DNA of 64,000 nt from Armatimonadota bacterium. GTDB taxonomy: Bacteria; Armatimonadota; Zipacnadia; Zipacnadales; JABUFB01. The translations under genes were made by a program, and so were the position numbers. This document shows positions 24,481-28,071 of this stretch, in pieces (the first letter of the stretch is position 1; each line of letters begins with the position of its first letter). The DNA is taken from the NCBI GenBank assembly GCA_013314775.1, contig JABUFB010000020.1, positions 1-64,000 on the forward strand, written 5' to 3'. The notes beneath the pieces were generated by a model that worked only from the letters and a program-made list of their open reading frames with translations, had not been told where the DNA came from and did no database searches.

Positions 24481-24789
24481 TCAGTCGAAGAGCCTCAACT
24501 GCTGTGTGGCGCGGCCGGAGTGGAGGTTCGTGGTGATATCGCCCTCAGTGAGCTGAGCGTTCTCAAAGAGCCGCACAGCGATGTCGCGAAGCTTGTCAAG
24601 CTCGGATGGCTGGATATACCATGCCCGGGTGTCTGCGTTGTAGCTGCGCATCTCAAAGTCAATGGACTTCAGTGCGCGGACAACCTCATGGAAGATGCTC
24701 TGATCCGCCTCGAAGGTCACTTTGTAGACCTGCAGATCAGGTCGCCAGGTGATATTGATGGAGTTAGCCTTGCCCTTCTGCCGGGACAT
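24481..24789 (-). CDS. Small conserved-looking protein, possibly HARP-like
   Basis: A 102-residue soluble protein. The central part (VYKVTFEADQSIFHEVVRA, then NADTRAWYIQPSELDKLRDIA) fits the pattern of a HARP-like domain: strand, helix, an Asp-x-x-x-(R)-x-W turn and a final helix. HARP binds DNA structures in SMARCAL1-type helicases and also occurs in small bacterial proteins. This is a pattern resemblance only. A promoter-like TTGACG-N18-TATCCT precedes it. It is a single-gene unit with no helicase beside it. Confidence 0.6.
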   Translation of the reverse strand: MSRQKGKANSINITWRPDLQVYKVTFEADQSIFHEVVRALKSIDFEMRSYNADTRAWYIQPSELDKLRDIAVRLFENAQLTEGDITTNLHSGRATQQLRLFD

Positions 24790-24869: not shown

Positions 24870-26131
24870 GGTGATGCAAGGGGCTCGTCACAGACCGAAC
24901 CCGCAGCCAAAGCCGCCTGGCGTGTAATCATACCCTCGAAACTGCCATTCTCGCTCAAGACAGGCAACCGCTTAAGACCGTGTTCGGTCATGAGATTCAC
25001 CGCTTCCTCAATGGGCGTATTCTCGCACACTGTCACCAGGTTTGTCTTCATTATCTCCGCAGCAGTCTTCCGCCGGGCAGCGGCGTCCATGTCCCCCCGC
25101 CTTTTCAGGTATTCCCAGAAACCCCCGCGGCGCTCCGTAAGCGCCGCAAACAGGTCGTAGTCGGTGATCAGCCCCAGAAACTTCCCTTGCTCGTCGACCA
25201 CAGCCAGTCGTTGGACGCCGCTTGACCTGAGCCTATCCAGCACTTCAGCGCCGGTCGCATTCGGCTCAATAGTGTTCCTCTCACGACTCATGATATCGCG
25301 AACGAGAGTGGGTGCTCCGGCATCCGCGCTGCAGGTTCCCATTGTCCGGCGGCCCACGGACTGGCTGGCCATGGTGCCAAAGATATCAAGTCGCGCCAGC
25401 ATCCCTACGAGTCGATCCCGCGCGTCGACCACGGGAAAGCGTTTGAGGTTACGTCTGAGCATAATCGCAACGGCCTGCGGCAAAGGGGTGTCAGCCTGCA
25501 CGGTCACGACGGGGCTGGTCATCACGTCAGCAGCGGACAGATGCGTGACATTCGCCAGATACCCGTCCAGCTGAGCCTGTTCCAGTTCGGCAAGCAGCCC
25601 TAGACGCACAGGCATACCCGCGCGTTCGATCAGGTCTCCCTGGGTGACGATGCCCTTCGGGCGCCCCGCTTCGTCCACCACCGGAACCGCGTTGAAGTCA
25701 GCGGTGATGAGTAGCCGGATAATGTCACTGACGGGAGTTGCTTCCAGAACTGCCGTGGGGTTCGCAGTCATCACATCCCGGACCTTCAAACGTCTCGGGG
25801 TCAGCCCGTTGCTCACCCGGTGGAACACGACCTCGCACGGTCCCGAAACCACGATGCCGTCGGTCACTGTGGCCGAAAGCCTTTCCACAAGCGCCTCACA
25901 CTCACCGGCAGGCAAGATGATCTCAACCTTCACCGGCATGTTATATGACAAGACTTCCAGGCGGCTGCTGGCCTGCTCACCGCTCTCGTACAGCCCGGCC
26001 ACCCCTTTGAGCACAATGCAGCGAGCCGCGCACCGGGCTTTCCTGACCTGCTCGACAACGGCCTCCCAGACCGGCCGCCCGTGGCTCCTGGCATCTTCGC
26101 TGGTGTAAACGTTGATTATTCGGTAGTCCAT
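24866..26131 (-). CDS. DUF190 domain fused to four CBS domains
   Basis: A 421-residue cytoplasmic protein. Residues 1-110 are a DUF190 domain (VYTSEDARSHGRPVWEAVV, GVAGLYESGEQASS, VKVEIILP), structurally PII-like and often encoded beside CrcB. The rest holds four CBS motifs, two Bateman modules, each with a DVMT/DIMS/EIMK entry and a GI(V/I)T-type exit (KVRDVMT near 116, AADVMT near 200, VRDIMS near 283, AAEIMK near 360). CBS pairs usually bind adenosine nucleotides or AdoMet, so the protein probably links nucleotide or energy state to fluoride export. It lies 15 nt downstream of crcB under the same fluoride riboswitch. The inter-CBS linker near 240-275 is longer than usual. Confidence 0.9.
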   Translation of the reverse strand: MDYRIINVYTSEDARSHGRPVWEAVVEQVRKARCAARCIVLKGVAGLYESGEQASSRLEVLSYNMPVKVEIILPAGECEALVERLSATVTDGIVVSGPCEVVFHRVSNGLTPRRLKVRDVMTANPTAVLEATPVSDIIRLLITADFNAVPVVDEAGRPKGIVTQGDLIERAGMPVRLGLLAELEQAQLDGYLANVTHLSAADVMTSPVVTVQADTPLPQAVAIMLRRNLKRFPVVDARDRLVGMLARLDIFGTMASQSVGRRTMGTCSADAGAPTLVRDIMSRERNTIEPNATGAEVLDRLRSSGVQRLAVVDEQGKFLGLITDYDLFAALTERRGGFWEYLKRRGDMDAAARRKTAAEIMKTNLVTVCENTPIEEAVNLMTEHGLKRLPVLSENGSFEGMITRQAALAAGSVCDEPLASP

Positions 26132-26146
26132 GGAATGGCAGGCTCC

Positions 26147-26518
26147 TCACAGTTGCCGTCCGATCCAGAGTCCAGCAAGCACAAGCAGCAGTCCACCCAC
26201 ATTGTTGGCGGCGATGTTAGCGAGCCCCGACGCCCACTGAGCATCGCGCACGAGGCCGATGGTCTCTATGCCGTAGCTGGAAAAAGTGGTGAGACCGCCG
26301 AGGAACCCGGTAACGAGAAGGAGACGGAACTCCGGGCTGATAGCGGCACGTTCGACCCCGAGGGCGAAGACGAGACCGATCAGGAAACAGCCGGCAAAGT
26401 TGACGCCGAGCGTACCCCAGGGAAAGCTGTCGCCGTATATGCGGGCTGCCGCGAGACTCAGGATGTACCGGCAGGCTGCCCCGACTCCACCGCCCAAGAA
26501 CACGAGCAGTAATTGCAT
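26147..26518 (-). CDS. crcB: Fluoride exporter CrcB/Fluc
   Basis: A 123-residue four-helix membrane protein of the CrcB/Fluc family, a dual-topology dimeric fluoride channel that lets fluoride leave the cell. Signatures are GGGVGAACRY at the N-terminus, GTLGVNFAGCFLIG in helix 2 and GFLGGLTTFSSYGIET in helix 3, which includes the Phe-box/Na-site region. A single crcB gene of this length implies a homodimer. GGA is about 7 nt upstream of the ATG. A promoter and a fluoride riboswitch lie directly upstream. The DUF190-CBS gene follows. Confidence 0.97.
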   Translation of the reverse strand: MQLLLVFLGGGVGAACRYILSLAAARIYGDSFPWGTLGVNFAGCFLIGLVFALGVERAAISPEFRLLLVTGFLGGLTTFSSYGIETIGLVRDAQWASGLANIAANNVGGLLLVLAGLWIGRQL

Positions 26519-26586
26519 CTCGCTTTCCGTCTCTCTCTACTGCGGTGTCTTGGCTGGGGTCGGCCGCAAACGCGGCGCATATATAC

Positions 26587-26624
26587 GATGACCCCTCCGC
26601 ACCGCGTGGTGAGCAGGGGTCATC
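26587..26624 (-). terminator. Riboswitch expression-platform hairpin
   Basis: In the minus-strand RNA GAUGACCCCU (26624-26615) can pair perfectly over 10 bp with AGGGGUCAUC (26596-26587), with a smaller CACC/GGUG hairpin in the loop. The 5' arm is the 3' segment of the fluoride aptamer that must pair with GGGG in the ligand-bound pseudoknot, so the two folds exclude each other. No U-run follows (GUAUAUAUGCG), so the control may be a weak intrinsic or Rho-linked terminator. The crcB start is some 70 nt further on. Confidence 0.7.
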
Positions 26625-26673
26625 AGTCCGAAGACGGTCTGGCCTCGAAGGCCGGGCGAACCCCATCGCCACT
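26611..26673 (-). promoter_or_regulatory. Fluoride riboswitch aptamer (crcB motif)
   Basis: On the minus strand the RNA reads GGCGAUGGGGUUCGCC, a small GGCC-UUCGA-GGCC stem, AGACC-GUC-UUCG-GAC and then UGAUGACCCCUGCUC. This matches the fluoride aptamer: the GGCGAUGG...UCGCC stem, the CUGAUG element, and a pseudoknot in which GGGG after GAU pairs with CCCC after UGAUGA. It begins within about 10 nt of the predicted transcription start and lies upstream of crcB, the classic target. The extra short stem between the first helix and the third is a lineage variation. Confidence 0.9.
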
Positions 26674-26679
26674 GAGGGA

Positions 26680-26708
26680 AGTATACCCGCGGCCCTTTCG
26701 CCAGTCAA
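26680..26708 (-). promoter_or_regulatory. Sigma-70 promoter for the riboswitch-crcB operon
   Basis: On the minus strand TTGACT (26708-26703), exactly 17 nt, TATACT (26685-26680). The expected start near 26673 coincides with the 5' edge of the fluoride aptamer, which supports both calls. Confidence 0.82.
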
Positions 26709-26720
26709 CATGAGCCCGGA

Positions 26721-26749
26721 TTGACACAGTTCGGGGGCGCATGTAGTCT
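26721..26749 (+). promoter_or_regulatory. Putative promoter for the CAP-domain gene
   Basis: A perfect TTGACA -35 (26721-26726) and, 17 nt later, TAGTCT (26744-26749), 48 nt before the ATG at 26797. It is back to back with the crcB promoter, 12 nt between the -35 boxes. The -10 is poor. Confidence 0.5.
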
Positions 26750-26796
26750 TACCCTGCGGATCCATCCGGACGGATGTCGCTCAGCGGAGAGCCGAG

Positions 26797-28071
26797 ATGA
26801 CCCTTTCAATGACCATACGGCACGCCCGCATCAACTCCCTCGTCCCTTGCATCGTCGCAATCTGTCTGCCCCTCTGCGCACACGCGCGGGTCACGATGGC
26901 GCAGGTGGAGAGAGATATCGCCTGGCTCATCAACACCGAGCGCGCCCAGGCCGGCCTCTCCCAACTTGCGACGGACGCAGACCTTGCCGCGGTGGCCCGG
27001 GCACACAGCGCTGAAATGCGCGACAAGGGCTTCATGGGCCACGAATCCCCTGTTGCAGCCCACAAGACACCCAGCGACAGGTACCGCCTCAAGTTCGGTG
27101 TCAACCCCGCCACGCTTCGCGAGAACGTGTCCCGCACCGAGTTCGCGGCGATCAATCAGACAGTGGCGCAGACCGTACATATGGGTTTCATGAACAGTCC
27201 ACCCCATCATGACAACATCATGGCTGCGGATATCTCGCTCATGGGCATCGGCTGCGTCTCCGATGACGACGGCACGGTCTGGACAACGGAGCTCTTCTCG
27301 GTGCCGCCACCGCCCGTTCCGACCGAACCCGCTCCGGCAACTCAAGCTCCGGCGACCAGTGCTCCTGCACAGCCCGCCACGGCTGCGGCGACCGTCGCTG
27401 TGACTGCCGGCGGCGTAACGTTGCCCGTTCAGGTGCGGATCTGGTACGTGTCCGCGGGGCCCAACGCGCCCGCACAAGTGAAGGCCGACGTCAGCGCTGG
27501 GGATGCCATCCGCTGGGGTGCAACAACTGACGGCGAGCAGGTGTTCACGGTGTCGGCGGCTATTCCCGGGCGTGAGGGCCTGACAGTCATGCCTGCCGCC
27601 AGTCTCCACGAGATGCCCACAGCATCATTGGCGGGCGCCGATGGCGAGTTGATTCTGACCGTCAGTGCGTCCGAGGCCGTTCACTGTCGCATTATCCTGA
27701 TCACCGGCTCGCTGACCGCGGTTCGGCAGTACGGCTCGGGGATGCGAACTGCGACCGCTCTCACGCCGGGGACACTGACAGCGGCAAGTCTCGGCGACGG
27801 CGGCGGAACCGAGGTCTTCACAATATCTAACACCGGCGCGCTGTGTGAACTGCGCGTCTCCTGGCTCTACCCGTCCCCAAGGGCCGCCCAAGTGTCCGTG
27901 TATGATGAACTCGATGAAAGGGTCTGGAGCGGCGCACTGGTGGGCGCGGAATGCCTGCGAATGAACCTCGCCGACGCTCCTGCTGGACACTACACTGTTG
28001 TGATCACCGCTCCCGACATGCACGCAGGCCAGGGCGATCTCACGATAGGCGTCTTCCCCACGGATGAGTAG
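26797..28071 (+). CDS. Secreted CAP (SCP/PR-1) domain protein
   Basis: A 424-residue exported protein. The signal peptide (about 1-30) ends near CAHAR. Residues about 35-168 form a CAP domain: LINTERAQAGLSQL, AHSAEMRDKGFMGHESP and FMNSPPHHDNIMAADISLMGIG, with the His and Glu residues typical of bacterial YkwD-like proteins. A Pro/Ala/Thr-rich linker (about 170-205) leads to a beta-rich C-terminal region of some 210 residues, likely two sandwich domains of unknown type. GGAGAG is 6 nt before the ATG. It overlaps the start of the next gene by 8 nt. Bacterial CAP proteins are extracellular; their biochemical role is largely unknown. Confidence 0.9.
   Translation: MTLSMTIRHARINSLVPCIVAICLPLCAHARVTMAQVERDIAWLINTERAQAGLSQLATDADLAAVARAHSAEMRDKGFMGHESPVAAHKTPSDRYRLKFGVNPATLRENVSRTEFAAINQTVAQTVHMGFMNSPPHHDNIMAADISLMGIGCVSDDDGTVWTTELFSVPPPPVPTEPAPATQAPATSAPAQPATAAATVAVTAGGVTLPVQVRIWYVSAGPNAPAQVKADVSAGDAIRWGATTDGEQVFTVSAAIPGREGLTVMPAASLHEMPTASLAGADGELILTVSASEAVHCRIILITGSLTAVRQYGSGMRTATALTPGTLTAASLGDGGGTEVFTISNTGALCELRVSWLYPSPRAAQVSVYDELDERVWSGALVGAECLRMNLADAPAGHYTVVITAPDMHAGQGDLTIGVFPTDE

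Follow-up and report, generated by a model that had tools for sequence, protein, structure and literature searches.

Transcriptional fluoride riboswitches of the RF01734 family, as described for the crcB genes of Bacillus cereus and Thermotoga petrophila, place an aptamer upstream of crcB and build one strand of its pseudoknot into a terminator stem (PMC11077080; PMC13273304). PMC11077080 describes the domains of the fluoride riboswitch that exclude each other, and its linchpin. PMC13273304 reports covariation for the pseudoknot and the terminator stem as alternative states, and finds that, with the E. coli polymerase, 323 of 1901 fluoride riboswitches are functional. Competition between the pseudoknot and the terminator stem is thus the published mechanism of the class.

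The locus analyzed here lies in a 64,000-nt stretch of Armatimonadota DNA (the window). It shares aptamer, strand re-use and downstream crcB with the B. cereus and T. petrophila forms and differs from them in having a hairpin inserted between P1 and P3, a 10-bp stem running through GAUGA and no U-run. Hairpins in the terminator position without a U-run are also known and have this form in common with the window; however, those hairpins are not ligand-controlled, and termination at the window hairpin is predicted. A literature search combining "fluoride riboswitch" and "armatimonad" found no paper.

The riboswitch unit and its operon

A covariance-model search, which a preliminary description of the locus had proposed as a check, returned an RF01734 match 1.3 bits above the gathering score (Table 1). 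No other Rfam family matched anywhere in the 64 kb, and the 6.12-Mb genome has no second RF01734 match. The aptamer has P1, P3, the pseudoknot strands and the conserved GAUGG and UGAUGAC; in the alignment, P3 is short and 13 nt are inserted. In a sister species the stem of the inserted hairpin is retained with an altered loop. For comparison across the phylum we used 112 loci, from 117 RF01734 matches in 93 of 291 Armatimonadota genomes, and 77 of the 112 had aptamer matches of at least 70 nt.

Table 1. Features of the fluoride riboswitch locus, with positions in the window.
Feature	Position	Strand	Basis or remark
Promoter	26680..26708	−	−35 TTGACT 26708-26703, 17-nt spacer, −10 TATACT 26685-26680; sigma-70-like, 10/12 matches
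Fluoride aptamer RF01734	26607..26679	−	35.3 bits, E 4.7e-6; gathering score 34
P1	GGCG 26670-26667 with CGCC 26658-26655	−	Fold coordinates
Pseudoknot 5′ strand GGGG, in P1 loop	26661..26664	−	Partner CCCC 26619-26616; by RF01734 alignment
Inserted hairpin GGCC-UUCGA-GGCC, between P1 and P3	26641..26653	−	RF01734 alignment and fold; insertion relative to Rfam consensus
P3	CCG 26637-26635 with CGG 26630-26628	−	Fold coordinates
Shared arm GAUGACCCCU	26615..26624	−	Pseudoknot 3′ strand if bound, alternative-stem 5′ arm if free
Alternative-stem 3′ arm AGGGGUCAUC, terminator position	26587..26596	−	Whole hairpin 26624-26587
A/U-mixed tail GUAUAUAUGCGCCGCGU	26570..26586	−	After alternative stem; no U-run
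GACCCC	26556..26561	−	Can pair with GGGGUC 26595-26590 when pseudoknot holds shared arm; putative role
crcB (Fluc fluoride channel), 123 aa	26147..26518	−	PF02537 97.6 bits; TIGR00494 105.6 bits, cut-off 80.45
DUF190 with four CBS domains, 421 aa	24866..26131	−	15 nt after crcB

The preliminary description had read positions 26587-26708 as a complete fluoride riboswitch unit. Promoter, aptamer and alternative stem are indeed all present, and the interval spans the promoter through the end of the alternative stem exactly. The proposed promoter, TTGACT-N17-TATACT, was the sole site resembling a promoter in 25500-27500 (0.4 in shuffles), and the gap between promoter and aptamer, put at within about 10 nt, is 9 nt. 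Judging from spacing, transcription likely starts near 26673. The sister promoter is kept as TTGACC/TATACT. Among the 112 Armatimonadota loci, a -10-like box stands directly upstream of P1 in 84 (27.8 expected), accompanied by a -35 in 36 (3.3 expected).

Pairs of crcB with a DUF190 gene are known, and the window likewise encodes CrcB and DUF190 together, DUF190 here being fused to the CBS domains. A literature search for crcB, DUF190 and fluoride found a single review, on an unrelated subject. The DUF190-CBS gene is the probable second gene of an operon that the preliminary description had not named. The alternative stem is separated from the crcB start codon by 68 nt. The sister species retains the whole unit, from promoter through aptamer and alternative stem to the two genes in this order, and its DUF190-CBS ORF reads alike; its crcB (locus L190) starts 89 nt after the aptamer, and the 330 listed for it is one of several errors in ORF-start distances that were assigned mechanically. 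The nearest named record to the window's genome is JAGPGE010000277.1 ("Armatimonadetes bacterium"), with a CrcB identity of 85%. The riboswitch interpretation is supported by the RF01734 match over the curated threshold, the promoter, a stem on the 3′ pseudoknot strand, the downstream fluoride-response gene and the conservation in the sister, and on this sequence evidence the locus is a true fluoride riboswitch, conserved and of a kind already known.

Other genes were noted near these riboswitches. Behind the DUF190-CBS gene, a 102-aa ORF (24481-24789, minus strand) with only a sub-threshold Pfam match has a nearly identical counterpart at the same place in the sister (L190 4521-4829). In a genome of the same family (G003), the riboswitch precedes an ion-exchanger-like ORF and then a ClC-type-channel-like ORF, as identified by eye. 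Dynamin-family GTPase genes accounted for 8 of the 90 first ORFs scanned after fluoride riboswitches (e.g., L118, L129, L026, L144), and a search for "fluoride riboswitch" with "dynamin" found no paper. The first ORF after 16 of the 90 (e.g., L166, L016, L162) matched DUF6062, a family of unknown function, which is therefore a candidate fluoride-response protein; a search for "DUF6062" found no paper.

The alternative stem and its tail

On the minus strand, GATGACCCCT (26624-26615) can form 10 perfect pairs with AGGGGTCATC (26596-26587), with an inner 4-bp extension and a hairpin energy of -27.1 kcal/mol. The claimed re-use of an aptamer arm in this stem held up, with one match in the window and none in 100 dinucleotide shuffles. 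We also found that the window's helix across the CCCC core reaches 11 bp, whereas 200 shuffles of the sequence downstream gave a mean of 0.69 (P 0.005, the lowest value this test can return). The first arm of the GC-rich stem also serves as the 3′ strand of the pseudoknot in the aptamer, and therefore the two folds cannot coexist, as had been proposed. Within the shared arm, A26623-U26615 would be the linchpin, by analogy with A40-U48 as given in PMC11077080 and not by alignment to that sequence. In the modeled energies, which leave the pseudoknot's own energy out of the count, the free-state fold dominates; switching would therefore have to be kinetic. A third pairing, GGGGUC with GACCCC, is energetically possible (-18.4 kcal/mol) and weaker in the sister species (-10.3), which keeps GACCC of this element.

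The reported absence of a U-run was confirmed: the 12 nt past AGGGG (UCAUCGUAUAUA) contain five U, none of them adjacent. The corresponding tails are UCUUUGGGCAUC in the sister and UCUUUUUGUUUG in G003. Since there is no U-run, the usual rule does not predict termination, and we do not class the stem with the canonical intrinsic terminators, although it probably acts in a similar way. The scan that found the promoter did not list the alternative hairpin, whose T-tail score of 2.99 resembles the scores of loci in which the arm is clearly a Shine-Dalgarno sequence. Tail U content drops as locus GC rises (Spearman rho -0.38, n = 53, P 0.005), so weak tails may in part represent loss of constraint. 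A stronger stem may also compensate for a weak A/U-mixed tail.

Platforms and hairpin tails across Armatimonadota

Across the 112 loci, the helix through the shared arm averages 7.8 bp compared to 3.1 bp in shuffles, and it reached P < 0.05 in 55. A proximal alternative stem was present in 64 loci. The pair just before the core in these is A-T in 33, G-C in 17 and G-T in 11, which indicates that pairing has been kept through changes on both sides. We sorted the 64 loci by what follows the stem, a crude sorting that probably places L013, L019, L028, L167 and L184 wrongly in the Shine-Dalgarno group. A U-run of at least 4 directly behind the stem, which is the canonical attenuator form, was found in 26; another 6 were U-rich, and 15 had a start codon 3-14 nt past the arm. 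The remaining 17, the window among them, had no U-run, were not U-rich and had no nearby start codon. The preliminary description had called the lack of a U-run unusual for a transcriptional switch; this is fair by textbook standards, but these 17 loci of the phylum lack one too, and the window's own genome has almost no excess of U-run terminators. Two further patterns were seen in the survey. In family f6 (L010, L011, L014, L019, L022, L027, L028), the bases directly past the alternative stem are conserved as UGUAC and then a C-rich stretch. L004 and L007 have two-hairpin platforms in which the alternative stem is succeeded by another hairpin that carries a U-run (CCCACUGCCAAGUGGGUUUUUUU in L004), which suggests an extra antiterminator step.

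We compared hairpins followed by T5 with those followed by A5 as a control. The counts were 22 versus 18 in 864 kb of the window's genome, 19 versus 2 in 50 kb of E. coli K-12, 5 versus 2 in 340 kb of genome G008 and 47 versus 18 in 400 kb of genome G091. The U-poor tail is thus not peculiar to the window locus, as T5 hairpins barely exceed the A5 control in the 864 kb sampled. Using rough gene calls made for this analysis, strong hairpins were found at 56 of 154 convergent gene ends of the window's genome, compared to 34 of 154 when shuffled and 15 of 142 divergent controls. Only 3 of these 56 had a TTTT tail, under a stem definition that may count a T-run as part of the stem where A/T pairs extend it (TTTT in 1 of 16 in E. 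coli), and the T5/A5 comparison was therefore used for U-runs. In genome G000, the tails of strong hairpins were mildly U-rich (TTTT in 11 of 236, 2.13 expected), so U-tracts do occur, although they are few and weak. With convergent ends rich in strong hairpins and poor in U-runs, a strong hairpin with a weak tail appears to be the local style, and such hairpins may be terminators.

We also searched for other tail motifs. TGTAC followed strong hairpins in 7 of 144 tails of G008 (0.43 expected; P 4e-7 uncorrected, 4e-4 corrected). In fresh sequence from G017 it occurred in 1 of 50 tails (0.19 expected), which is not significant (P 0.17), and the motif was therefore not confirmed there. TACTTA, ACTTAA and CTTAAC each followed 5 of 144 strong hairpins in G008 (0.03-0.04 expected) and are probably a repeat family. 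As a tentative generalization, on which we would not yet rely, GC-rich Armatimonadota of this order might terminate transcription through strong hairpins with short, interrupted, lineage-specific tails (UGUGUACGCC-like in family f6), and their fluoride riboswitches likewise, which would make the window a case of a ligand-controlled, U-less intrinsic terminator.

Mode of control

The mode of the window riboswitch is most likely transcriptional, with a U-poor platform in keeping with its genome, and we consider it reasonably probable that it controls the crcB/DUF190-CBS operon by attenuation with a strong, U-poor hairpin. Fluoride binding, the start site, termination and the direction of the switch are what we infer from sequence. 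Transcription would begin a few bases ahead of the aptamer. With fluoride present, the pseudoknot and the linchpin would hold the shared arm, and RNA polymerase would read on into crcB. With fluoride absent, arm AGGGGUCAUC would invade the pseudoknot to form the 10-bp GC-rich hairpin, which would stop or stall the polymerase at about 26587-26575 and so stand in for a canonical U-run terminator.

Rho could instead end transcription, with the hairpin that forms without fluoride pausing the polymerase or uncovering a Rho site and no U-tract being involved. The genome carries a rho gene (TIGR00767, 582.5 bits, cut-off 509.45), and the near absence of U-run terminators in the sampled 864 kb would fit such a system. 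However, no strongly C-rich, G-poor stretch was found from the hairpin to crcB (C/G 0.48 to 1.26 in 78-nt windows, 26673 to 26414). As Rho sites are hard to predict, this counts for little, and we regard Rho-dependent attenuation as unlikely. A switch acting on translation, in which the rearrangement alters ribosome access to crcB, is plain in relatives (L112, L116, L121, L150, L166), where the alternative stem has a Shine-Dalgarno-like 3′ arm that lies a few bases before a start codon. In the window it is improbable, as the distance from stem to crcB is such that the stem neither overlaps nor hides the ribosome site, and the modeled accessibility of that site is near-equal in the bound and free states (0.73 vs. 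0.61 and 0.59 vs. 0.61); Shine-Dalgarno masking at the window crcB was rejected on these values. A leader peptide starting at AUG 26580 behind AGGGG was also considered; this AUG is absent in the sister and no third-position excess of changes was seen by eye, and the peptide is therefore not supported.

The low bit score of the aptamer, together with the absence of the U-tract present in the sister and in G003, could indicate a decayed switch, in which the aptamer still folds, the platform has lost its terminator and crcB is constitutive or weakly regulated. We consider this highly improbable. The sister's short U-tract, UCUUU, is UCAUC in the window, and these bases pair with GAU of the shared arm and lengthen the stem, the same hairpin stretch having an energy of -20.0 kcal/mol in the sister. 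Moreover, CCCC in place of CUCC can still pair with the loop of the aptamer as well as with the alternative arm.

The locus is a clean fluoride switch from a phylum that has received little study. With its bound and free states over a hairpin without a U-run, it lends itself to asking whether the phylum's own polymerase terminates at such hairpins, and termination by hairpins of this kind bears on terminator prediction in GC-rich bacteria.
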